Virus record (IMG/VR): IMGVR_UViG_3300014839_001411
Span: 1-64,000 of that record
Source: a virus
Strand: one strand, 5' to 3'
Length of the DNA: 64,000 bases
Made by a program: the position numbers and the translations under genes. Positions 2,283 to 62,205 of the stretch are shown here, piece by piece. Under the pieces are notes generated by a model, which saw nothing but the letters and a program-made list of their open reading frames with translations, was not told the DNA's origin and did no database searches. The first letter of the stretch is position 1, and each line of letters begins with the position of its first letter.

Positions 2283-4631
2283 TTATGGTAGAGAATACGT
2301 GATGATCAATTGCGGCTGACTTCCCGCAGTCGCATTTCCGCTGAAGAACAGCATATAGTCTGCTTTGTTGTTATTGTTGGTCGGCAGTGCGAAGTACAGG
2401 CGCAGTTGCGTCAGGTTGGTTTTGTTGACGTCGTTTCTTCCAGTCACATTCAAGGTTGCACTGTACCAACCGCTGACAGGCGTTGCTCCAAAACTGCCGA
2501 TCTCGTTCGCTGTAGCCGTAGCATTGAAATCCGCCAACTCCAAGGCCGGACTTATGCCGAAGTAACCTGTGCGGATATCAGCGTACAAGGTGCTTAGGAT
2601 GGAAAACGGATTGGTTCCAACCGGTGAGCCGCTTGGCTTGATCTTGAGTACAGCGGACTGGATGACAACCGTATCGGGTAGTGAAACCGTGTTGAAGGAT
2701 AGGATGGCGCGGTACTGGCGATTGAGATTGTCATCACCGAGTTTATACGTAGTGGCGGTCGAGTTCAGCGAGCCACCCTTGCTAGTGCCTTTGGCGGATT
2801 CGAGGATCCAACCGTCATAGGAAGCGCTGGATATGAAACTGACGATGTCTACATAGTTCTGGTTGAGTTGATCGGTGGTGAGGATGCTGGAGTAGGTACG
2901 GCACAAAGGATTGAATGTTATACCGGATTTATTCGGAGTGACTGTGCCAGACCAGTCATAGGGAACCGTAATCGCGTAGCGGCCATTGCTGGCAGAGGTA
3001 ACGGTTTTGGCTAAGCCATTGATGTAGAAATGCAGCACCACGCCTGCATCTCCGGCGCTACCAGAAATGAGAAGAGGACAAAGTTGGGGCACCGAGGCAC
3101 AGTTCGTTGCAGCATAGTCTTGGTTGATTTGATTTGCCGCCACCTTGCTATAGGTGCGGCTGGCTGGTGTAAAGACGAAGCGGGCCTTAGATGGCTTAAC
3201 GGCACCAGACCAGTTATAGGGTACGGTAATTGTATAGTGGCCGCTGCTATTGGCAGAGGTCGAGCCACCGGTATAGGCGAGAGTGGCATTTGCGCCGCCT
3301 GCACCCAAACTGCCTGAAATAGTGTAAGTGTTCAGCGTCGCCGTGAAGTTCTGTCCGGTTAAGTCGGCGGTGACAGGGGTTGTGCTGTAATCATAGTCAA
3401 CAGGTGAGAAAGTAGTGCCCGTCAGCGAAGGCGTGATAATACCGGACCACCCATAGGGCACGGTAATTATATAGTGGCCGCTGCTATTGGCAGAGGTCGA
3501 ACCACCGGTATAGGTGAGAGTGGCATTTGCGCCACCCGCGCCCAAACTGCCGGAGATGGTAACGGTACAAACATGGGTTCCCTGCATACTGGGAATACTG
3601 TTCAGCCAAGACTGAAAAGGCGCATCGCTTGGTTCGCACAGATTGGTGTCGGCGAACTCAAAGTATTGTAAGTAGGTTAGGTTTTCAAAAGAAACAGGCA
3701 AGCTGCCGCTCAGTTGATTAGAAGAGAGTCCAAGTTGTATTAGTTGGGTCAGGTTGCCTAGTTCAGAAGGGACGCTTCCGCTCAGTTGGTTGTTAAAAAG
3801 GACAAGGTAAGAAAGGTTCCGCATGTTGCCCAGTTCGGGCGGGATGTTGCCACTCAGTTGGTTACTTTGGAGCCAAAGGGTACCTAGATTGGTCAGGTTG
3901 CCCAGTTCGGGCGGAATGTTGCCACTCAGTTGGTTGCTATCAAGGAAAAAGTACTCCAATTGGCTCAGGTTGCCCAGTTGAGGCGGGATGCTGCCACTCA
4001 GTTGGTTGTCACCGAGGCTAAGTTTTGTTAGTAGGGTCAGGTTGCCCAATTCAGCCGGGATGCTGCCACTCAGTTGGTTAAAACCGAGGTTAAGGTTTGT
4101 TAGTTGGGTCAGGTTGCCCAGTTCAGGCGGGATGCTGCCACTCAGTTGGTTACCACCGAGGCTAAGGTTTGTTAGTTGGGTCAGGTTGCCCAATTCAGCC
4201 GGGATGCTGCCACTCAGTTGGTTGTAATGGAGGCTAAGGTTTGTTAGTTGGGTCAGGTTGCCCAGTTGAGATGGAATGCTGCCGCTAAGTTGGTCGAATC
4301 CGAGAAGAAGCTCACCTACATACCCACTAACACAATTCACCGCATACCACGAGCAGGGGGTGTTCGTCTGCAGCCAGTTTGTATTGTTTGTCCAACTTGC
4401 GCCGTTCGTGCTGTTATAAAGCGCTACCAAGGCTTCGCATTCGCTCTGCGGGATTTCTGTCACCAATGAACAATCTGTTGTGACGCCGGGTGCGGTGAAA
4501 TTCTGATTGGTCAGCGACGATCCAACTAAGCCGGGCGCAGAGTTAAACGAGTGCGCTGAGGCGTTGCCGCTCGATATCGCCGCTATTAGCAAAACAGAGA
4601 AGATTATCGAAATTGGTTTTTTTGTGAACAT
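2283..4631 (-). CDS. Secreted leucine-rich-repeat protein with DNRLRE-type C terminus
   Basis: 782 residues. A Sec signal peptide (MFTKKPISIIFSVLLIAAISS, cleavage probably after NASA) is followed by an LRR N-cap (LVALYNSTNGASW) and about ten 24-residue LRRs of plant-like type (LSGSIPxELGNLTQLTNL). Then come three related beta-sandwich repeats (ISGSLGAGGANATLTYTGG type) and a C-terminal DNRLRE-like domain (YRAILSFNTVSLPDTVVIQSA). It is probably a cell-surface or secreted adhesion protein. The RBS GGGAGGG lies just upstream of the ATG. Such proteins are typical of bacterial chromosomes, which suggests host sequence. Confidence 0.85.
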   Translation of the reverse strand: MFTKKPISIIFSVLLIAAISSGNASAHSFNSAPGLVGSSLTNQNFTAPGVTTDCSLVTEIPQSECEALVALYNSTNGASWTNNTNWLQTNTPCSWYAVNCVSGYVGELLLGFDQLSGSIPSQLGNLTQLTNLSLHYNQLSGSIPAELGNLTQLTNLSLGGNQLSGSIPPELGNLTQLTNLNLGFNQLSGSIPAELGNLTLLTKLSLGDNQLSGSIPPQLGNLSQLEYFFLDSNQLSGNIPPELGNLTNLGTLWLQSNQLSGNIPPELGNMRNLSYLVLFNNQLSGSVPSELGNLTQLIQLGLSSNQLSGSLPVSFENLTYLQYFEFADTNLCEPSDAPFQSWLNSIPSMQGTHVCTVTISGSLGAGGANATLTYTGGSTSANSSGHYIITVPYGWSGIITPSLTGTTFSPVDYDYSTTPVTADLTGQNFTATLNTYTISGSLGAGGANATLAYTGGSTSANSSGHYTITVPYNWSGAVKPSKARFVFTPASRTYSKVAANQINQDYAATNCASVPQLCPLLISGSAGDAGVVLHFYINGLAKTVTSASNGRYAITVPYDWSGTVTPNKSGITFNPLCRTYSSILTTDQLNQNYVDIVSFISSASYDGWILESAKGTSKGGSLNSTATTYKLGDDNLNRQYRAILSFNTVSLPDTVVIQSAVLKIKPSGSPVGTNPFSILSTLYADIRTGYFGISPALELADFNATATANEIGSFGATPVSGWYSATLNVTGRNDVNKTNLTQLRLYFALPTNNNNKADYMLFFSGNATAGSQPQLIITYSLP

Positions 4632-16507: not shown

Positions 16508-17461
16508 CTATTTCAGCCATCCTTCAATTTCGAGCAACGCCTTCTTGGGTTCACCCAAGATCCAATCATCAATATCCTTGTATTCCTCGGGCGGACGCTT
16601 GAGTTCTGCTCGCAACGCTTTTGCGCGTCGGACCGCGTACTGATCCATCTTGTAACGGACGTCTGGGTCGGGATCGTTGTCTGCCACAAGAATTCTTTTA
16701 CTCGTCCAGATCATGAACGGCAGCAATTCTTCACACGACAAAGCTTCTCCACCGGTGGGCGCACAAGCCAGGAAGCCGTGCTGCTCTAGAAGCATCGCGG
16801 CGATCTCGCCTTTGACGATCAGGATCGGATCGGTTTTGTAGTAAATATCGTTCAAGTGAAACAAGCCGTTGATCGAGCCTTCCAATGCGCCGTATCGATC
16901 ACGGTGAGAGATGGAGTGAATGTTGCGCATCTTGATGCCCTGAAGCCTGCCGAAATGAAAGGTTGGCATGGTCATCCAGGTTCTACCAAACATCTCTGAC
17001 TGACCGACCATGTTGTTTTCCAGGGTCTTTTTGGTCAAGCCGCGCAGTTTGGCGTACTTTATCGCCTCGTCTCCAGGTGGAGTAAATACTTCCCACGCAT
17101 CATTTGGAAGCAGAGGAGATTTACGAACCTTCTCCGGCGGAGACATCTTGTAACCACTGGTAAGAAGGGTCAGGGCGCGTTTGACGTGCTCCCCGTTCTG
17201 ACTGTCGTAACCCGATATTTGAAGATAACCCACCAAATCGATCACGTCCCCGGATGCTCCGCAAGCGCCAAAACAATGAAAACGTTGATGTCCATCCTTG
17301 AGAGAAATGCTGAAGGACGGCGTATTGTTGTGATGAGGGTGATTGGGCATCGGACAAACGATCACCTTCTTGTTACTGGGGATGCCTAGTATTGCGAACA
17401 TATCGTAGAGCTGTCTGGCATCGTGAACACGGGAGTGCCGTATGCCTTTACGGGTTACCAT
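16508..17461 (-). CDS. DnaG-type primase with CHC2 zinc finger and Toprim domain
   Basis: 317 residues. The CHC2-type zinc finger is formed by C36PMPNH and FHC63FGAC67G. The Toprim part has ILIVKGEIAAMLLEQHG (the acidic GE) and ILVADNDPD. It lacks a helicase domain, so it resembles phage and plasmid primases that start RNA primers on ssDNA and work with a separate helicase. ATG at 17461 has AGGAGTGCT upstream; the longer frame is not used. Confidence 0.88.
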   Translation of the reverse strand: MVTRKGIRHSRVHDARQLYDMFAILGIPSNKKVIVCPMPNHPHHNNTPSFSISLKDGHQRFHCFGACGASGDVIDLVGYLQISGYDSQNGEHVKRALTLLTSGYKMSPPEKVRKSPLLPNDAWEVFTPPGDEAIKYAKLRGLTKKTLENNMVGQSEMFGRTWMTMPTFHFGRLQGIKMRNIHSISHRDRYGALEGSINGLFHLNDIYYKTDPILIVKGEIAAMLLEQHGFLACAPTGGEALSCEELLPFMIWTSKRILVADNDPDPDVRYKMDQYAVRRAKALRAELKRPPEEYKDIDDWILGEPKKALLEIEGWLK

Positions 17462-17706
17462 AGCACTCCTTGCGTCAGCTTGATCTCGCCTGCTGACGGC
17501 TGACGAATGTCCTCCGTGGCCGCAAAAACCCAGTCGATGTAGGCGTATTTCTGGGCATTGATGACGGTCCATTCTTGTCGAACCCAGTCGTACGCGCGAT
17601 CTTTGGATGCAATGGCAGTCTTGAAACGAGACACGCTATCTTGAAACCCCGGCTGCACGATCTTTACCTTCAAAGTATTTTCGTTGATTGCGTGAATAGA
17701 TAACAT
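17455..17706 (-). CDS. Hypothetical protein at the end of the ubiquitin-like operon
   Basis: 83 residues, MLSIHAINENTLKVKIVQPG, RBS GGAGGCAGCT. Alternating hydrophobic residues suggest a small alpha/beta domain. Not recognised. It follows the E1-like gene after a GNRA-type hairpin (17722-17745) and overlaps the primase start by seven bases, so it links the two functional blocks. Confidence 0.55.
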   Translation of the reverse strand: MLSIHAINENTLKVKIVQPGFQDSVSRFKTAIASKDRAYDWVRQEWTVINAQKYAYIDWVFAATEDIRQPSAGEIKLTQGVLW

Positions 17707-17750: not shown

Positions 17751-18413
17751 TTACAGCGAAAATGTTTGCAGCCAGTTGTTGGGAATGTTGTGAACAAGCC
17801 GATGGGGGATTGCGTCTCCCTGAACGATCTTGCAAACCGCATTACCAATATGACCAGCGGCTATGGCAGCCGTAAAAAAAGTCGCTTTCTCTGTGCAGGG
17901 AACGTCCGGAATATCTTCCTCATGCGTGCTCATAAGCCTGGGGCCGTAGCTGTCTGCACATCCCACGTTATTCAGCACCAGGAAATGCTGGTACTCCAAA
18001 GCACCCATTCTTGCGTCCAAATAATAGGACCAGCGGCTCGTGGAATTGCATAGCGCCAGCCAGATTTGCTGACGAGCCAGGATGCTATCCACTGCGGAAA
18101 TCACGAGCGTGGCGCGCAGCGTTGCGTCCGGGCCAATGCGCTCCGGGCTGACCATCAAGCTAATATCGTCGGAGTATTCCTGAAGAGCGAAGCCGAGTGC
18201 TTCCACTTTCAGCTTTCCTACGTCGGAAACCTTGTGGAGCTGAGTGGCGATATTCTCTTCACCCACGATGTCGTCATCGAACAGAACCATGTTCTGTACA
18301 CCCATCTTCGCCAGGGTCAAAGCAGTGATCGCTCCAATACCGCCGGCGCCAATGATTGCTACACTAAAGCCGGTGGGAATGTTGTAAATATTTTGGTGTC
18401 TGGTGTGATCCAT
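17751..18413 (-). CDS. ThiF/E1-like adenylating enzyme
   Basis: 220 residues. A Rossmann nucleotide-binding start GAGGIGA (22-28), the FDDDIVGEENIATQ block (45-58) that matches the D and ENxxR/Q positions of E1/ThiF/MoeB enzymes, K69 region GKLKVEAL, and SAVDS (106-110). It should adenylate the C-terminal glycine of a ubiquitin-like protein. C173 (VPCTEK) is the best candidate for the thioester cysteine; the family is known to vary here. It is compact (adenylation domain only). It is translationally coupled to the JAB gene (stop/start overlap at 18413) and follows the E2-like and Ub-like genes, which strongly supports a conjugation role. Confidence 0.85.
   Translation of the reverse strand: MDHTRHQNIYNIPTGFSVAIIGAGGIGAITALTLAKMGVQNMVLFDDDIVGEENIATQLHKVSDVGKLKVEALGFALQEYSDDISLMVSPERIGPDATLRATLVISAVDSILARQQIWLALCNSTSRWSYYLDARMGALEYQHFLVLNNVGCADSYGPRLMSTHEEDIPDVPCTEKATFFTAAIAAGHIGNAVCKIVQGDAIPHRLVHNIPNNWLQTFSL
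18213..18230. repeat. Dispersed 18-bp palindrome
   Basis: CTTTCCTACGTCGGAAAC, inside the E1-like gene. Confidence 0.7.
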
Positions 18414-19057
18414 TACACGCCTCCAAACAGACTGTGACCGAAGAACTTGGGGCCACCAACGTTTTCTTCTTCATCATCGTCTTCAAGCCCGTCCCAGAGT
18501 TCGTCTTCTTCCAGCCAATCGCTTTCAGCATCAAACGCTTCTGATTGAAAGCGTTCCCGGCGCGGCTTCTCTTCCTTAATCTTCTCGATATTCAACGCGG
18601 CCTCGAGAGCGAAGCAGGGCTCCACGGGGATATGCACCGTTGCGCCGTTTGGTCCGTAGGTATCGTAACGACCCACCCAGCCATACGGAGTGCGTACCAT
18701 TGAAATCGACCACTTCACCATATCCGGCACACCGCCAAATGGCTTGTTCCGGCAGGTATCGTCGTCGATGCTGGACCAGTTGTCCGGACCAGGAATGCCC
18801 CTGCCGAGTGGATGGCGATGGAACCACAGCTTCATTTGCCTGGCGTCGGGCCGCTGCATAAGGCCCAGAATTTTCCTGGACGGAATTTCAGTCAACCCCT
18901 CGGAGCCTACGTCTAAAACCACCGCGTCGTACACGTGAAAGGCTTGATGCCCCGGGTCGAGTTCAACGAACCCAAAACCCGAAAACTCCTTGCCATGAGT
19001 TTGATTGACGTAATTCTCCAACTTGACCATAACCAGTGGATCTACAACGATTTTCAT
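18413..19057 (-). CDS. JAMM/JAB-domain metalloprotease (Mov34/MPN-like)
   Basis: 214 residues. The JAMM zinc motif is visible: E24 in KEFSGFGF, H80-R-H82-P, then S95-S-I-D98. The spacing between H82 and D98 is somewhat longer than in typical JAMM sites. Family members remove ubiquitin-like modifiers or trim their precursors. An acidic, disordered C-terminal third (ESDWLEEDELWDGLEDDDEE) follows. It sits between the E2-like gene (ATGA overlap at 19054-19057) and the E1-like gene, so the three are co-translated. A role as deconjugase or processing enzyme for the Gly-Gly protein is inferred. Confidence 0.82.
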   Translation of the reverse strand: MKIVVDPLVMVKLENYVNQTHGKEFSGFGFVELDPGHQAFHVYDAVVLDVGSEGLTEIPSRKILGLMQRPDARQMKLWFHRHPLGRGIPGPDNWSSIDDDTCRNKPFGGVPDMVKWSISMVRTPYGWVGRYDTYGPNGATVHIPVEPCFALEAALNIEKIKEEKPRRERFQSEAFDAESDWLEEDELWDGLEDDDEEENVGGPKFFGHSLFGGV

Positions 19058-19743
19058 GCTGGCTCCTTGATTTCATTTGTGTCAAAATCCAAGTTCTTGA
19101 TCCCCCCGTGCACCAACGGAGAGCTTGGGTTGTACCTGCTCAGGTACAAATACAGAAGTCGGAACAATTCCGGAATGTCCGGGATGTCCAACAACAAACG
19201 AACAGGATTTCCAAATCCGCCCCAGCAAGTACGGGGTTCTTTATCCAGCGGGTGAACCGTACTGTCCATTTCGTAGTCCACCTTATGGTGTGGGTGGCGT
19301 GCATGGGAATACGGCTGCTTGAGTGGAATGAATTGGAAATCATCCGGACAGCAATTCGCAATTGCATCCAGGGACAAATAGACCGCGTAAGACCCCAGGT
19401 AATATTTGCGATCACACCCATCTCCTTCGATCACAATGGGCTTGGTGACGCCCACCAGATACTTTTTCCCCTTACGGATCGTGGTGGTGAATTCCTGATA
19501 CGGTAGGACCCGCAGGCGCGTCATTTCGTACTCAAGTCCAGATCGATTGTCCGAATGACCCACCCGCAATACTGACAAAATGTGCGCATGAGCAGAGGCG
19601 CGCATTTTCAAATACTTTGCAGCGCCAGACGGGTATTCTGCTGCGTGCTGCTTTTCCTGGTGTATGAATGTCTCGTAGACCTGCCTTAGATACTCCAGGA
19701 ACTCTACGGACACGCTGGCGCGTGAAATAGTTTTGATTGCCAT
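19054..19743 (-). CDS. E2-like protein of a ubiquitin-like pathway (putative)
   Basis: 229 residues. The C-terminal half reads like an E2/UBC fold: strands YYLGSYAVYLSLDA and FQFIPLKQPY, a HARHPHH segment where E2s have HPN, the candidate catalytic cysteine C173 in RTCWGGFG, then a helix region and YNPSSPL (204-210), matching the PNPxxPL of E2 enzymes. Compare PRTRC-system protein B, which is E2-like. The N-terminal ~90 residues are helical and unassigned. The assignment rests on these motifs and on operon context; sequence similarity to eukaryotic E2 is low. RBS TGGAGGC. Confidence 0.62.
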   Translation of the reverse strand: MAIKTISRASVSVEFLEYLRQVYETFIHQEKQHAAEYPSGAAKYLKMRASAHAHILSVLRVGHSDNRSGLEYEMTRLRVLPYQEFTTTIRKGKKYLVGVTKPIVIEGDGCDRKYYLGSYAVYLSLDAIANCCPDDFQFIPLKQPYSHARHPHHKVDYEMDSTVHPLDKEPRTCWGGFGNPVRLLLDIPDIPELFRLLYLYLSRYNPSSPLVHGGIKNLDFDTNEIKEPA

Positions 19744-19763
19744 AAAGCCTCCAATGAGAACGA

Positions 19764-19790
19764 AAACCCAGGCGTTAGCTGCCTGGGTTT
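19764..19790 (-). terminator. Attenuator-like hairpin between modifier and E2-like genes
   Basis: A perfect 10-bp stem AAACCCAGGC / GCCTGGGTTT with a 7-base loop, followed on the minus strand by TTTTCG. It should end part of the transcripts after the Ub-like gene, leaving more modifier than enzyme. Confidence 0.65.
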
Positions 19791-19804
19791 CTGACGTCAG
19801 AAAC
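19787..19804. repeat. Dispersed 18-bp palindrome, fully symmetric copy
   Basis: GTTTCTGACGTCAGAAAC, in the spacer between the Ub-like and E2-like genes, overlapping the attenuator hairpin. Confidence 0.75.
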
Positions 19805-19809
19805 TACGA

Positions 19810-20145
19810 CTATCCGCCCTTGACGTTGCCGATCAACGTCACGGTCTGCCCGCCTGAAACGAGAGCGGTCATGTCAATCGCTGCGCCATCGACGTAGCAA
19901 TCAACCTTGCCGCTGTAGGTCAGGTTGGCGCGCACAATAAGTTCATTGAGCGGAGTGGGCTCGAGCACAGGAACGTACTTGGGTGAGCCGCTGGGAACCA
20001 TGATCTTGACCAAGGTGGCCGGATCAATGTTGTTGTCCGAGAGGAAGTTCAAGTCCTCTTCGGGGGTGGCTTCCGGCATGGGGATGTTGGAAGGGGTCTC
20101 GGTATCATCGCTGCCGCCGAGGGTGGGATCAAACTGATCAGTCAT
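19810..20145 (-). CDS. Ubiquitin-like protein ending in Gly-Gly
   Basis: 111 residues. Residues 1-40 are acidic and disordered. Residues 41-111 can be laid over ubiquitin: TLVKIMVPSG (strand 1), KYVPVLEPTP (strand 2), PLNELIVRANL (helix), KVDCYVDGAAID (strand 3, like RLIFAGKQLED), and QTVTLIGNVKGG at the very C terminus (like STLHLVLRLRGG). The stop follows the diglycine directly, so no C-terminal trimming would be needed before activation. RBS GGAGGTACACA. It has its own consensus promoter (20170-20198). Operon context (E2-like, JAB, E1-like) makes a conjugated modifier the best reading. PRTRC protein C is a possible relative. Confidence 0.72.
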   Translation of the reverse strand: MTDQFDPTLGGSDDTETPSNIPMPEATPEEDLNFLSDNNIDPATLVKIMVPSGSPKYVPVLEPTPLNELIVRANLTYSGKVDCYVDGAAIDMTALVSGGQTVTLIGNVKGG

Positions 20146-20169: not shown

Positions 20170-20198
20170 AGTATAAGCGGGACTGGAACAATTGTCAA
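20170..20198 (-). promoter_or_regulatory. Promoter of the ubiquitin-like operon
   Basis: TTGACA (20193-20198), 17-bp spacer, TATACT (20170-20175). The spacer contains ATTGTTCC, i.e. GGAACAAT on the other strand, the same element seen in other phage promoters. Confidence 0.8.
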
Positions 20199-20206
20199 GC
20201 AAATGG

Positions 20207-20235
20207 TAGACGATTGTTCCTTTTTGAATTACAAT
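20207..20235 (+). promoter_or_regulatory. Possible promoter of the HTH/TerS-like gene
   Basis: TAGACG, 17-bp spacer, TACAAT (20230-20235). The spacer begins ATTGTTCC. The -35 is weak. It diverges from the ubiquitin-like operon promoter, so the two share GGAACA/TGTTCC elements. Confidence 0.45.
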
Positions 20236-20242
20236 AGAAACA

Positions 20243-20258
20243 GTGCCGAAAGGCATCT
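20243..20258 (+). repeat. Mini-hairpin element in a 5' leader
   Basis: GTGCCGAAAGGCATCT, with a GAAA (GNRA) loop. Here it lies in the leader of a plus-strand gene, 11 bases before the ATG and overlapping the RBS region. Confidence 0.6.
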
Positions 20259-20269
20259 GGAAGGAATTT

Positions 20270-20848
20270 ATGGATACCCCCGCTGTACGACACATCAATC
20301 TTACGATTGCAGAAAGAGCCGACTTGGCCCAGCAGCAAAAGATCGAAGCCGCTGTCGCTATGTTCCTTGATCTTCAGCACGATCATACCTGGAAGGAAAT
20401 AGCCCAGTCGTTGGATATGAGCCTGGCTTCGCTCAAACGTCTGAGCCAGACCACTGAATTCAACGCAACCTATCAGAACGCCTTATCAGTAGTTGGACAC
20501 GACCCGCGCCTCGCCGCCATCACATCAAGCCTTGGGGACCTGCTGCCCATGGCGTACCGGCGATTGAAAACCATTTTAGGTAATCCCCAGGGAGATGACC
20601 GCGTTGCCATGCGCGCTATTGAGAAACTGTTCGAGTGGACGAAGCTGACTGAGAGCGACGCATCCGATGATCCTGCGGCTCTGACAGCTTTCTTCAAGAA
20701 CAACGGAGTTCAGGTGGAAGGTAATCTCCAACTTGTCAACATCAATGTTCCGAGCGAGTACCTGGAAGCCTTTGGAAAGTTCCTCTCTCCAGGCAAAGTA
20801 CCAGAAGTGATCGATCTGGTGGCCGAGCCCGCTGAACCTGCTGAATAA
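20270..20848 (+). CDS. HTH protein, possible small terminase subunit
   Basis: 192 residues. TWKEIAQSLDMSLASLKRLSQTTEF is a clear helix-turn-helix segment (about residues 41-65), followed by helices NATYQNALSVVG and AMRAIEKLFEWTKL, an arrangement like phage small terminase (TerS) proteins. The C terminus is low-complexity (EVIDLVAEPAEPAE). It lies 13 kb from the large terminase, so a transcriptional regulator is the alternative. It has an isolated transcription unit with its own promoter and a strong terminator. Confidence 0.55.
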   Translation: MDTPAVRHINLTIAERADLAQQQKIEAAVAMFLDLQHDHTWKEIAQSLDMSLASLKRLSQTTEFNATYQNALSVVGHDPRLAAITSSLGDLLPMAYRRLKTILGNPQGDDRVAMRAIEKLFEWTKLTESDASDDPAALTAFFKNNGVQVEGNLQLVNINVPSEYLEAFGKFLSPGKVPEVIDLVAEPAEPAE

Positions 20849-23702: not shown

Positions 23703-23836
23703 GGGGATTGGCAGGGCTCGAACCTGCGCATCAGAGTGTCAAGTTCTGATTGGTGTAGCTCAAAGAGTTTGACTTTTCTCCTTGCCCACTCGCTCCGGCG
23801 TGATACACCGGCGTTCTTCCGCTGAACTACAATCCC
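23703..23836 (-). tRNA. tRNA-like element with a ~58-nt internal insertion
   Basis: The minus strand has acceptor GGGATTG pairing with CAATCCC 120 nt later, D arm GTTC/GAAC, an Asp-like arm CCGGT-GTATCAC-GCCGG, and a standard T arm GCAGG-TTCGAGC-CCTGC. Between the D and T arms lies extra sequence, including a block bounded by GGTGTA and TACACC. The anticodon cannot be fixed (AUC in the first arm; a second arm ATCAGA...TCTGAT follows). It could be an intron-bearing tRNA, two fused tRNAs or a decoy. Confidence 0.4.
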
Positions 23837-26061: not shown

Positions 26062-27744
26062 CTACAACGCAGCTACGAATTCCGCAGCCTGCGGAACATT
26101 CTCAAGAACGGTCTTGAGCCGGGTCTTGATGTCTTCGGTCAAAGCCAATTCGTGCTGCCTGGCCTTGATAGCGGCTATCCGCCAGTCGATGCGGCGCTCA
26201 TTTTCAACCAGTACCAAACCCATCTTGTTCCCCTGAATGGCTTTGATGTGCTCTTGAGGACGAGGTACGCTCAATGGGCAAACCCGCCAGAACGTGCGCA
26301 TTGCCTGTTTGCGGTCGTGATGCGCTGTGTAGGATTTGCTATATTCCGTTGCTGCTTCAGGCGACATTGCAACGCGCCAGCCGGCCCACGCACTTTCGTC
26401 AGCTTCCTGGAATGTAGCCCCATTTTCCAGTGCTTGCAGGTAGGCCATGTTCCATGACTGAGTTTGCATGGGGTTATCGTCGTAGATCGGCATCTTTTCT
26501 GTCAGCAGCTTGAGCGTCATTTCGTCAAACTGCTCGATGTCTCTTTCTGACGTCGGAAACACGCCGCTTGGGCTGGCATCGTTGATCACTTCGAGTAAAT
26601 CATCCCACCAGGCTTCGAGATACTGGCGGAGACCAGGACGAAGATCGGACGCAATCAACCCGTAACCGTCCCCGGCAATCACATCATTTTCTGTGTCATC
26701 CACGGAACCGACGATCACAAGAGGCAGAACCACGGCTGCTGCGGTGGTGATATCCAACGCTTCGATGCGGTCAATATCGTTCAGAAGATCGGCGTATTCG
26801 TCACTCACGGTGAGCAGGAGACGAAATTCCGTGTACCAATCCTGTTTCTTGGTGTTGGTCAGCCGCATACGGTCGAAAATCTCGCCGCGCCGCTTGTTGA
26901 ACGCCTGAACGAGCTTCATGGCTCCGTAATACTCAGAGCGGTCAATCTTCAACTCTCTGTCCTGTAAGGTTGCAGGAACAAAGCCGCGGTCTTCTTCCGG
27001 CTCGTACTCATCTTCGCCGCCGATGAATTGGACATTAGCTTTCAGGAAGTCCTGAACATTCTTTTCGCTCCACCCTTCGTGTTCCTGGAGATACGCAGCT
27101 TGATGCTCCAGTTCGGTGTTGCGGGAAGGAATGAGAGGAGCTACGCCGTCAAAGCCGTCTCCATCGTTTCGGTCCGGAGTAAAGATGGCTTCCAGAAGAG
27201 CAAGCCAACCTTCGTCGGCGCTTGCAATCTCGTGCTGTTCAGGAATGTCTGCAATAAGCTGCTCGAAGGTCATTTCCTTCTTGCGGGTGTACGGATCGAT
27301 ATAATCCGGGTTTTCCAGATCGTTTGTGGATAAGGTTTGCTCAAGAAACAACTCACGGAGCGTATCCTTAGCCAGGAACGAATTCATGACATCCAAATTC
27401 ATGGCTTTGCGTAAGGAAGCGGAGTATTTGCGGTACAAGTCAGCCGGCTTGGTCGCTTTTGTGTTGCCAGCCTTGCGCGCCGCCGCCGATGCACCCATCT
27501 CAAGGCTAGTGACATTGACAAGCTGCATTACAGCTTTGTTCAAGATGCGCTTGGCTGCGGAAGCCCAAATAGTTTTGGTGATGCTCGGATCGGTCAACGT
27601 AAGAGCAATTACATCGAAGTAAGTCAAGGGATTTTCAGTCCCCTTGACGAAGGTTTGAGCTTGAGTGATGCACATCGGGATTTCACCAGTATGCACATCG
27701 TCCACCAAAGTACCAGTTACAGCCATCGGGTTGGTTGATTTCAT
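26062..27744 (-). CDS. Large hypothetical early protein
   Basis: 560 residues, not recognised. Helical and acidic, no membrane segments. A Val/Ala-rich core (AAAVVLPLVIVGSVDDTEND) and an Ala-rich segment near residue 85 are the only striking parts. It has a strong RBS (AAGGAGACGCA) and its own terminator, and sits next to ssb, so a replication or host-takeover role is possible but unproven. It contains one palindrome copy (26543-26560). Confidence 0.7.
   Translation of the reverse strand: MKSTNPMAVTGTLVDDVHTGEIPMCITQAQTFVKGTENPLTYFDVIALTLTDPSITKTIWASAAKRILNKAVMQLVNVTSLEMGASAAARKAGNTKATKPADLYRKYSASLRKAMNLDVMNSFLAKDTLRELFLEQTLSTNDLENPDYIDPYTRKKEMTFEQLIADIPEQHEIASADEGWLALLEAIFTPDRNDGDGFDGVAPLIPSRNTELEHQAAYLQEHEGWSEKNVQDFLKANVQFIGGEDEYEPEEDRGFVPATLQDRELKIDRSEYYGAMKLVQAFNKRRGEIFDRMRLTNTKKQDWYTEFRLLLTVSDEYADLLNDIDRIEALDITTAAAVVLPLVIVGSVDDTENDVIAGDGYGLIASDLRPGLRQYLEAWWDDLLEVINDASPSGVFPTSERDIEQFDEMTLKLLTEKMPIYDDNPMQTQSWNMAYLQALENGATFQEADESAWAGWRVAMSPEAATEYSKSYTAHHDRKQAMRTFWRVCPLSVPRPQEHIKAIQGNKMGLVLVENERRIDWRIAAIKARQHELALTEDIKTRLKTVLENVPQAAEFVAAL
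26543..26560. repeat. Dispersed 18-bp palindrome
   Basis: CTTTCTGACGTCGGAAAC, inside the 26062 gene. Confidence 0.65.
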
Positions 27745-60100: not shown

Positions 60101-61177
60101 TCATTTATCAGACTTTCTTCGGTTATCTTCTTTGCATCGCATCTTACAATTCTCAGAACTTGTTTTACCGCCTTCAATCCAGGGGGTTATATGGTCTGCC
60201 TCCATCTCTTCTATCTTCCATTTCTTTTTACAATCAGGACAAATACCTTTTTGTCTTTCATACGCTTCCCTTTTTTGTTTATCATCAAACAATCGAATAT
60301 TCAGGAACTTTTCTTTTCTTGTCAGGACATAAGAGTAAATACCTTTTTTGTTAGTTACATCTTCGTCCTCCATCAATTTGGCAATTTCCTTTTCCAACTT
60401 TTTTGCATCAAGTTTTTTGTCTTTATACTCATTGTATAAAAGCCCGAACGGAACTCCCTTCATTTCTTTACGATAGTTGATGAAGACTAATTTAACCCAA
60501 TTAATTACTGCTTGAAAATATTCCCACAAAACTTTTGCGTTTTTGTCGCTCTGATGCTTTGACATGTAGCCCTCAATTTTTCCCTCTGAAATCCAGTCAA
60601 TAGCAGTTTCTAAATATTCTTGTCGGTTAGCGGCTCCGCTTAAATAATCATCGCCTATTTTTGGACGGCTGTTTTTAGAAAAGTAGCGTTTGGCATCAGT
60701 AACCCATGAGCCTGAATAAACAGCATTTCGCAATTCTTGGCCTGTTAGTTCTTCTCCCGCAATGTTTATCGTTCTGAACCAATCTAACCTTTCGCTGTCA
60801 GTTCCTGAACAAAAATAAATCATCATGGGGTAGTTTAAAATCTGTTCTCGCTTATCTTTTAGGAGATTATGAAATGCTAATCCGTTAATTGAAAAATCAC
60901 CAGCTACATATTGGCATATTGAAATTGTTCTTTGTTGTCCGTCTATTATTTCAAAGTTGCCATCATCGCGCACAGCCCAATACATTGCATTGAGGGGAAA
61001 ATCATTTTTTACGGTATTGATTACAGCGTCACGTTGCTTGTCTTTGTAGATAAACTCCCTTTGATAGGGCGGACGAATATCTAATTTGCCGCCATAGCCA
61101 ACAACGCCATTTTCTTCGTTGTCTTGGTAGCCATTGGTTAATTCGCGGACTGTAATTTCTTTAAGTTCTATTTTCAT
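60101..61177 (-). CDS. DUF262-HNH nuclease (GmrS/D-like)
   Basis: 358 residues. DUF262 ParB-like NTPase/nuclease signature (PPYQREFIYKDKQRDAVIN, EIIDGQQRTISI) at 35-90, and a C-terminal HNH nuclease (CPDCKKKW...EADHITPWIEGGKTSSENC). Together with the adjacent adenine methylase this makes a restriction-modification-type pair. Overlaps the methylase gene by four bases. DUF262-HNH proteins without methylase (Type IV) attack modified DNA; the partner here suggests cognate self-protection. Confidence 0.8.
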   Translation of the reverse strand: MKIELKEITVRELTNGYQDNEENGVVGYGGKLDIRPPYQREFIYKDKQRDAVINTVKNDFPLNAMYWAVRDDGNFEIIDGQQRTISICQYVAGDFSINGLAFHNLLKDKREQILNYPMMIYFCSGTDSERLDWFRTINIAGEELTGQELRNAVYSGSWVTDAKRYFSKNSRPKIGDDYLSGAANRQEYLETAIDWISEGKIEGYMSKHQSDKNAKVLWEYFQAVINWVKLVFINYRKEMKGVPFGLLYNEYKDKKLDAKKLEKEIAKLMEDEDVTNKKGIYSYVLTRKEKFLNIRLFDDKQKREAYERQKGICPDCKKKWKIEEMEADHITPWIEGGKTSSENCKMRCKEDNRRKSDK

Positions 61178-62205
61178 AATGTCATTGGCTTTCTGTTTTT
61201 AATTACAATGCGAACATAAATAGGCTTCCCGTTTACTTGTGCCAAATATTTTCCTTGTGTATCTTCAGTAGGCCCTTCCAAAATACTATATCGGTTTAAC
61301 CCGTCAACGATTTCAAACTGGTCAGGATTGTATTTATCCATAAAGGTGATTGGAACGCCAATCGCGCCTTCATAACCCATAGGAATATCTTTTGTTTTAT
61401 CTACATTGATAGCGTCGTAGTGGTCAAAGGTGGGATATTCTTCTGGTGTAAATGGCTTGTAAAGGATTAAATCTTCATGTCTTTCTTTATAGTCCAGATT
61501 TGTAAACCAACGAACCCCTTTAACGCGAATAAATTTTTTTCCTTCGTGGTCAATTCTGTAACTAGCCGCGCTGAGTGGATAATCATCAGGGATGCCGAAT
61601 TCTCTGTCTCCACTATGAATACTCGCACCCAACCATAATTTATTTTCTTTTATCAATTTGAATATTTCTTTGTAGGTGATTGCATTCATATTACCAATTA
61701 TCAAAAACTTCTTGTCGTATTCTGTCAATTGAGCAACATATTCTCTGAATAAAGAAAACGGCGGATTGGTTACTACAACATCAGCCTGTTTCAGAAGTTC
61801 AATACATTCCTCGCTACGAAAATCTCCATCCCCTTTCAATGGTTTTACTCCAATTTCTTTCGGATCAGGTATGCTGTTCCCGTTTCTATCTCCAACGTAT
61901 TCTAAATAAATGGCTTGTTCGGAGTCGTTTTGGCTAAACAAATCCATGTTCTGATTTTTATAGCAGGCAGTAATTAATTTTTTCAGACCCAGTTTTTCAA
62001 AATTATACGAAAAATAATGGAAGAAATTGCTGGTGCGTGGATCATCACAATTGCAATAAACCACTTTTCCCTTAAAGTGGTTTTTATAATGCTTCATTTC
62101 TTTTTCAATATCAGATAATTGAGTGTAAAACTCGTCCTTCTTAGCCGTGCTTGCACTTCGTAAGTTTCTGTTTTGCGCTTTTGTAGCCATTGTTCGCTTA
62201 TCCAT
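61174..62205 (-). CDS. EcoRI-type adenine-specific DNA methyltransferase
   Basis: 343 residues. YCNCDDPRTSNFFHYFSYNF (the S-adenosylmethionine-binding start in this family), VVVTNPPFSLFREYVAQL (catalytic NPPF), and IIGNMNAITYKEIF identify the EcoRI methylase family. It would methylate N6-adenine. RBS GAGGAATAA. First gene of the two-gene minus-strand operon. Confidence 0.85.
   Translation of the reverse strand: MDKRTMATKAQNRNLRSASTAKKDEFYTQLSDIEKEMKHYKNHFKGKVVYCNCDDPRTSNFFHYFSYNFEKLGLKKLITACYKNQNMDLFSQNDSEQAIYLEYVGDRNGNSIPDPKEIGVKPLKGDGDFRSEECIELLKQADVVVTNPPFSLFREYVAQLTEYDKKFLIIGNMNAITYKEIFKLIKENKLWLGASIHSGDREFGIPDDYPLSAASYRIDHEGKKFIRVKGVRWFTNLDYKERHEDLILYKPFTPEEYPTFDHYDAINVDKTKDIPMGYEGAIGVPITFMDKYNPDQFEIVDGLNRYSILEGPTEDTQGKYLAQVNGKPIYVRIVIKNRKPMTL

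Follow-up and report, generated by a model that had tools for sequence, protein, structure and literature searches.

A tailed phage carries a probable, self-contained pathway for ubiquitin-like conjugation and deconjugation beside its primase gene

The 69,712-bp tailed-phage entry IMGVR_UViG_3300014839_001411 of IMG/VR carries, in the stretch of 64,000 nucleotides analysed here (positions 1 to 64,000 of that record, hereafter the window), a compact module of four genes that encode, in this order, a ubiquitin-like protein (Ubl), an E2-like protein, a JAMM/JAB metalloprotease and an E1-like adenylating enzyme. The best explanation of the module, and a likely one with its proposed mechanism included, is a phage-encoded and self-contained pathway of Ubl conjugation and deconjugation; that the four proteins belong to a conjugation pathway is well supported by their sequences and very probable. 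The DNA is that of a phage, as genes for the large terminase subunit, portal and capsid protein lie on the same record. A preliminary description of this DNA had reported four genes on the minus strand (17751-20145), translational coupling of three of them and a set of diagnostic motifs, and all of these were recovered. The four open reading frames (ORFs) are in place, and the E2-like, JAMM and E1 genes are translationally coupled, as their start and stop codons overlap (ATGA between the first two, TAATG between the last two).

The E1 was the only one of the four proteins that matched known families in single-sequence hidden Markov model (HMM) searches, with no convincing family for the Ubl, the E2-like protein or the JAMM protein. 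An alignment scan of viral contigs with the E1 returned 203 relatives. The 80 loci kept from these were chosen by the E1 alone and their neighbouring genes are therefore informative. A JAMM gene lies beside the E1 in 71/80 loci and an E2-like gene in 55/80, and all four genes are present in 35/80; these figures are of loci and not of independent lineages, as some are near copies of one another, and many of the contigs are incomplete at their ends. Most loci have the genes as Ubl, E2, JAMM, E1; in some, the Ubl comes after the E1. Chance similarity was ruled out by this co-occurrence across E1-seeded loci and by the invariance of catalytic residues across independent relatives. The set was found at 55-74% identity in L005 (IMGVR 3300037049_000148) and L006, the latter a contig binned with an Anaerolineae metagenome-assembled genome (MAG); in a JAMM search of 301 genomes of the phylum of this MAG, only that MAG matched. 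The viral contig L002 (IMGVR 3300002702_000060) has the same genes and a second E2-like copy. The patterns P0002 and P0004, searched by themselves at the DNA level, returned no relatives. In a tree of E1 proteins, with few outgroups and with long branches that meet, the 48 viral rows were separated from six PRTRC ThiF proteins and E. coli ThiF and MoeB in 97% of bootstraps. Besides the main E1, two loci have a further ThiF-like E1 match, 192 aa long, near the JAMM gene (L023:9068-9646 and L041:10143-10721).

The Ubl and JAMM proteins could be assigned because family profiles resolved what the single-sequence searches had left open. The AF2 model of the Ubl has a predicted local distance difference test score near 90 in most of the stretch from residue 41 to 110 and is a beta-grasp over the last 71 residues (order E-E-H-E-E-E), which Foldseek matched to CsUb (the Caldiarchaeum ubiquitin), TtuB, SUMO and NEDD8 with a probability of 1.00. 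The family profile matches SAMP2 at 8e-10, and the closest sequences by this profile are SAMP2, ThiS and TtuB. The protein ends exactly in KGG as had been described; KGG is invariant among the three closest Ubls and the last glycine in 37/37 members of the wider family, and the module thereby possesses the beta-grasp modifier with C-terminal glycine expected of a conjugation pathway. From this naked end it had also been argued that the Ubl needs no trimming and that the JAMM protein is more likely a deconjugase, which is not supported as a general rule. Between one and four residues follow the last glycine in 34/38 distinct Ubls, including that of the nearest relative (KGG-SVA, the end seen in L005/L006), and are lacking in the window, L002, L026 and L032. 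The naked GG of the window Ubl is an exception within its family, and as most of its relatives have short tails, a processing role of the JAMM enzyme is likely; it probably matures the Ubl in this family beside deconjugating it. Tandem Ubls of two domains, each closed by VKGG or VEGG, are encoded at L044:6837-7247 and L038:3501-3917.

The JAMM residues E24, H80xH82 and S95xxD98 were confirmed and are invariant in the family (68/68 for E24; 72/72 for H80, H82, S95 and D98), which provides the deconjugase motif of such a pathway. The family profile matches the ubiquitin-type deconjugases Rpn11 (2.8e-9), PfJAMM1, AMSH and CSN5, and Pfam Prok-JAB is matched by 31/39 members. The E1 contains the motifs GAGGIG, FDDD, ENIATQ and SAVDS listed earlier and also a PCT motif with C173. 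It matches Pfam ThiF at 3.5e-20, and its family profile matches UBA5 (3.6e-14), ThiF, UBA3 and BubCD. C173, D109 and R114 are invariant (81/81). At the sequence level the protein thus has the adenylation domain of an E1 and a conserved cysteine that is a candidate for the thioester.

The support for the 229-aa protein as E2-like is good but not final. It has H150-P-H152-H153, R171-T-C173-W-G-G and Y204-NPSSPL as described, with an insertion between HPHH and C173. The family motif HPH-(L/I)S-x-G-xPCxG (HPHLSNGVPCLGSF and variants) resembles the eukaryotic HPN...C arrangement and is followed by YNxxSxL, in the order of E2 enzymes; HPH occurs in about 44/46 members and the cysteine corresponding to C173 in all 47/47. 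The family profile scored 29.3 against UBE2D3/UBE2I, whose sequences were taken from general knowledge, and none of 200 column shuffles reached this value (maximum 19.7). Other families scored at most 18.8 in the same comparison, except the candidate E2 gp78 of crAss001 (28.2). The AF2 model of the protein is confident, with a predicted template modelling score of 0.86. None of the three findings that the preliminary description had named as grounds against its reading was made: the Ubl model is a beta-grasp, and the terminal glycine and the E2 cysteine are conserved in relatives, while a UBC fold of the E2-like protein is less certain.

The preliminary description had placed the pathway on a phage, beside primase, as an analogue of PRTRC and Bil, and this is supported; a primase gene follows the module in the window. 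A primase-related ORF also follows it in L002, L003, L005/L006 and L017, and elsewhere the module sits with DnaB helicase, a Sak4-like annealing protein, SbcC, a Cas4-like exonuclease or other replication genes. Module-type genes are present in the isolated phages crAss001 (gp76-79), Flavobacterium phage Fpv1 and Xanthomonas phage PhiXhv-15. The crAss001 genes run primase, gp79, gp78, gp77 (JAMM; profile match 4.7e-47) and gp76 (E1), with uracil-DNA glycosylase and Holliday junction resolvase genes beyond; gp79 is presumed to be the Ubl and gp78 the E2 from their position, the look of their sequences and a moderate profile score. The sets of crAss001 and Fpv1 have what is presumed to be the gene order of the window, that of crAss001 is near primase and their E1s fall among the viral E1s, whereas their E2-like proteins are larger and gp79 has a long C-terminal extension. 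The only annotations that these genes have are thiamine biosynthesis, metalloprotease and hypothetical protein. In Fpv1 (L008:1593-3885), a group I intron-like RNA (Rfam RF00028, 43.4 bits, a little short of the gathering score of 50) splits the JAMM gene immediately ahead of the HSHN codons, and an ORF of the LAGLIDADG type lies on the opposite strand between the halves of the gene. In PhiXhv-15 (229 kb), three genes lie together beside topoisomerase genes: those for the E1, for a 141-aa protein ending in ASGG and for an 892-aa protein in which an E2 domain was matched (E 7.9e-9). A Ubl profile search of the whole records of four phages including PhiXhv-15 found nothing, so that the Ubl of PhiXhv-15 is called from its position, from its GG end and from a local match that is weak (E 0.012 among seven proteins); the E2 and Ubl profiles were both built without PhiXhv-15. 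The 892-aa protein (L096:5586-8264) has cysteine-rich N- and C-terminal regions, possibly zinc-binding, with no Pfam match.

From these features we infer how the pathway may operate. The E1 would adenylate the C-terminal glycine of the Ubl and then hold the Ubl as a thioester on its C173, from which the Ubl would move to C173 of the E2 and, with no E3 encoded, be attached to lysines of its targets. Stripping the Ubl from these proteins would fall to the JAMM enzyme, which in relatives with a short-tailed Ubl would also expose the GG. As the module is placed with replication and recombination genes repeatedly and across unrelated phages, the phage's own DNA metabolism is at least as likely a target as host defence proteins or virions; we put forward tentatively that proteins of its replication and recombination apparatus are tagged in a SUMO-like manner. 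It is conceivable, and a shade more speculative, that an old SUMO-like pathway, distinct from PRTRC and Bil, belongs to the shared core of tailed phages and serves the reversible tagging of proteins with which they replicate and recombine their own DNA, with the genes of crAss001 and others mislabelled as thiamine biosynthesis. Several observations weigh against the explanation as a whole. No E3 was recognised, and Foldseek found no UBC match for the E2-like model in PDB or among viral models, so that the protein is called an E2 from its motif and profile. The JAMM search of the whole PhiXhv-15 record gave no match, and in L003 the E1 lacks the other three genes in the 4 kb upstream, where the contig ends. 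The link to replication is one of neighbourhood alone, and early regions of phages are rich in replication genes in any case.

The module would work like PRTRC and Bil, yet it does not qualify as either. PRTRC of plasmids shares with it a Ubl (C), an E2-like protein (B), a JAMM protein (A) and an E1 (ThiF), in the order Ubl-E2-JAB-E1, where we take A, B and C to be the JAMM, E2 and Ubl components partly from general knowledge. In 4/6 plasmids examined the PRTRC order is C-(F)-B-A-ThiF beside a ParB-family gene, whereas the window has no PRTRC-type ParB or E gene upstream and a divergent gene stands there instead. A profile comparison with PRTRC had been suggested in the preliminary description; the window E1 reached 48.2 bits against the PRTRC_ThiF cutoff of 144.75 (TIGR03736), no NCBIfam model, those of PRTRC A, B and C included, matched the window Ubl, E2 or JAB, and direct profile comparison with small alignments of PRTRC A/B/C gave no match to the phage proteins. 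The phage Ubl has GG where PRTRC C carries only one KG close to its end, PRTRC B is without the HPH motif of the phage family, and the phage E1 groups with viral E1s. Bil (BilABCD) likewise has a Ubl, an E2, a JAMM protein and an E1 in four genes, and tandem Ubls occur there as in the two phage relatives. However, BilD comprises an inactive adenylation domain, an active one and a Cys domain, and BilB has a CEHH motif with the cysteine upstream of the histidines (PMC11354881), whereas the phage E1 is a single ThiF domain of 220 aa and H150/H152 precede C173; Bil is also a bacterial defence and the phage module is encoded by a virus. The E1 and JAMM profiles match the BubCD and CBASS Cap2 chains weakly, and PADLOC E1-E2 models match the window E1, but E1 is fused with JAMM in BubCD and with E2 in Cap2, whereas the phage proteins are all separate and include their own Ubl. 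The portion of Iyer et al. 2006 covered here (PMC1779556) predicts bacterial E1-E2-JAB-Ubl operons, some on mobile elements, which are sets like the phage module; its phage case is that of the tail assembly proteins TAPI/TAPK (Ubl and JAB/NlpC) without E1 or E2, and no phage E1-E2 set appears in that portion. In the open-access literature searched, which takes in neither preprints nor most subscription journals, no description of such a phage set was found.

The same pathway may instead be aimed at the host, tagging and inactivating defence or takeover targets. Early expression would fit the sigma-70 promoter of the operon, and bacterial Ubl systems do serve in phage-host conflict (PMC11354881). 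Even so, the module stays beside replication genes across very different phages. Accessory genes of the counter-defence type generally reside in variable islands, and we regard this aim as unlikely. A reading as a defence island was ranked lower for the same conserved core position. This position also argues against a temperate phage that uses the pathway as Bil does, tagging virion parts of incoming phages, as do the presence of the module in crAss001, Fpv1 and the 229-kb PhiXhv-15 and the E1 and E2, which are unlike the Bil architecture; we hold it to be quite unlikely although Bil has the same four activities (PMC11354881), a tyrosine recombinase gene adjoins primase and the phage also has an EcoRI-type methylase beside a GmrSD/HNH gene.

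Two further readings concern what the proteins do. The 229-aa protein could be a Ubl-binding scaffold or a substrate with a conserved cysteine, beside a set of Ubl, E1 and JAMM; the lack of a UBC fold among its Foldseek matches in PDB and its closest structural neighbours, which are uncharacterised phage proteins, would agree with this, but HPH...CxG followed by YNxxSxL in E2 order and a profile score above every shuffle make it improbable. A sulfur-carrier relay like ThiS, TtuB or MoaD, in which the E1 would put sulfur destined for tRNA or cofactor synthesis on the tail of the Ubl and the JAMM protein would trim the Ubl, could draw on the nearest Ubl sequences, some of them dual-function, and on the tRNAs and RtcB-like ligase that the phage encodes. 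Such relays have no need of an E2-like protein with an invariant cysteine, no homologue of a sulfurtransferase, ThiG, MoaE or TtuA came to light beside the module (no systematic search was made), and we consider a relay very improbable. The ThiF equivalog models of sulfur-carrier systems gave 61.7 bits against a cutoff of 159 and 51.7 against 275.

A Ubl conjugation pathway owned by phages would be of interest beyond this record. To our knowledge, the complete Ubl pathways described in prokaryotes come mainly from bacteria, archaea and plasmids, and Bil at least is anti-phage. The occurrence of the kit in dozens of viruses, often beside genes for DNA copying, suggests that many phages employ protein tagging during infection, and a version owned by phages, recognisable in cultured isolates as well as in dozens of viral contigs, would show that bacterial viruses run protein tagging of their own. 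The phage module would offer a genetically tractable setting in which to study the purpose of bacterial-type Ubl tagging, would bring E1 and E2-like enzymes that are minimal by nature into the early history of ubiquitin signalling, and would correct annotations of cultured phages that name these E1 genes thiamine biosynthesis proteins.

Expression signals that the preliminary description does not mention were also found (Table 1). A near-consensus sigma-70 promoter lies upstream of the operon, with hexamers and spacer identical in L006 and L002, and would drive its transcription as a host-type promoter. An interrupted palindrome, a putative operator, extends over its -35 box; the 36-bp span is kept in L006 and L002 with different letters, and exact arms at this span occur in 0.13% of shuffled 100-nt stretches. 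The 66-bp gap between the Ubl and E2 genes holds a terminator-like hairpin, the stem of which is identical in L005/L006; among the full-set loci examined, no such hairpin occurs outside the window and L005/L006. By it, more Ubl would probably be made than enzymes.

Table 1. Genes and signals of the module and its surroundings in the window
Feature	Position	Strand	Description
Ubl gene	19810..20145	-	111 aa; N-terminus of about 40 aa (low model confidence) and 71-aa beta-grasp ending in KGG
Codons for C-terminal Lys-Gly-Gly of Ubl	19813..19821	-	Conserved in relatives
E2-like gene	19054..19743	-	229 aa; H150-P-H152...C173, then Y204-NPSSPL
JAMM/JAB metalloprotease gene	18413..19057	-	214 aa; E24, H80, H82, S95, D98
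E1-like (ThiF-fold) adenylating enzyme gene	17751..18413	-	220 aa, single domain; predicted thioester C173 (PCT motif)
Sigma-70-type promoter upstream of Ubl gene	20170..20198	-	TTGACA-17-TATACT; 11/12 consensus
Interrupted palindrome over -35 box	20185..20220	-	GGAACAAT-N20-ATTGTTCC, 36 bp; putative operator
Terminator/attenuator-like hairpin between Ubl and E2 genes	19763..19791	-	11-bp stem and T-rich tail
ORF between E1 and primase genes	17455..17706	-	83 aa; no Pfam match
DNA primase gene, downstream of module	16508..17572	-	phrog_47 DNA primase, 1.2e-21
Divergent gene, function not assigned	20243..20848	+	201 aa; no PHROG or Pfam match

ORFs of a size comparable to the small ORF between E1 and primase occur at the same site in L002, L003 and L005, by position and length, and the ORF lists of L002, L005 and L006 hold a similar divergent gene opposite the module. 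Elsewhere in the window, an EcoRI-type adenine methylase adjoins a GmrSD_N/HNH protein (60101-62205) as a possible restriction-modification-like pair, and in a tRNA-like Rfam match of 45.3 bits (23703-23836), which ARAGORN does not call, the anticodon arm is followed by about 60 additional bases. The window also encodes a 560-aa protein without a Pfam or PHROG match (26062-27744) and a 782-aa leucine-rich-repeat protein (2283-4631).

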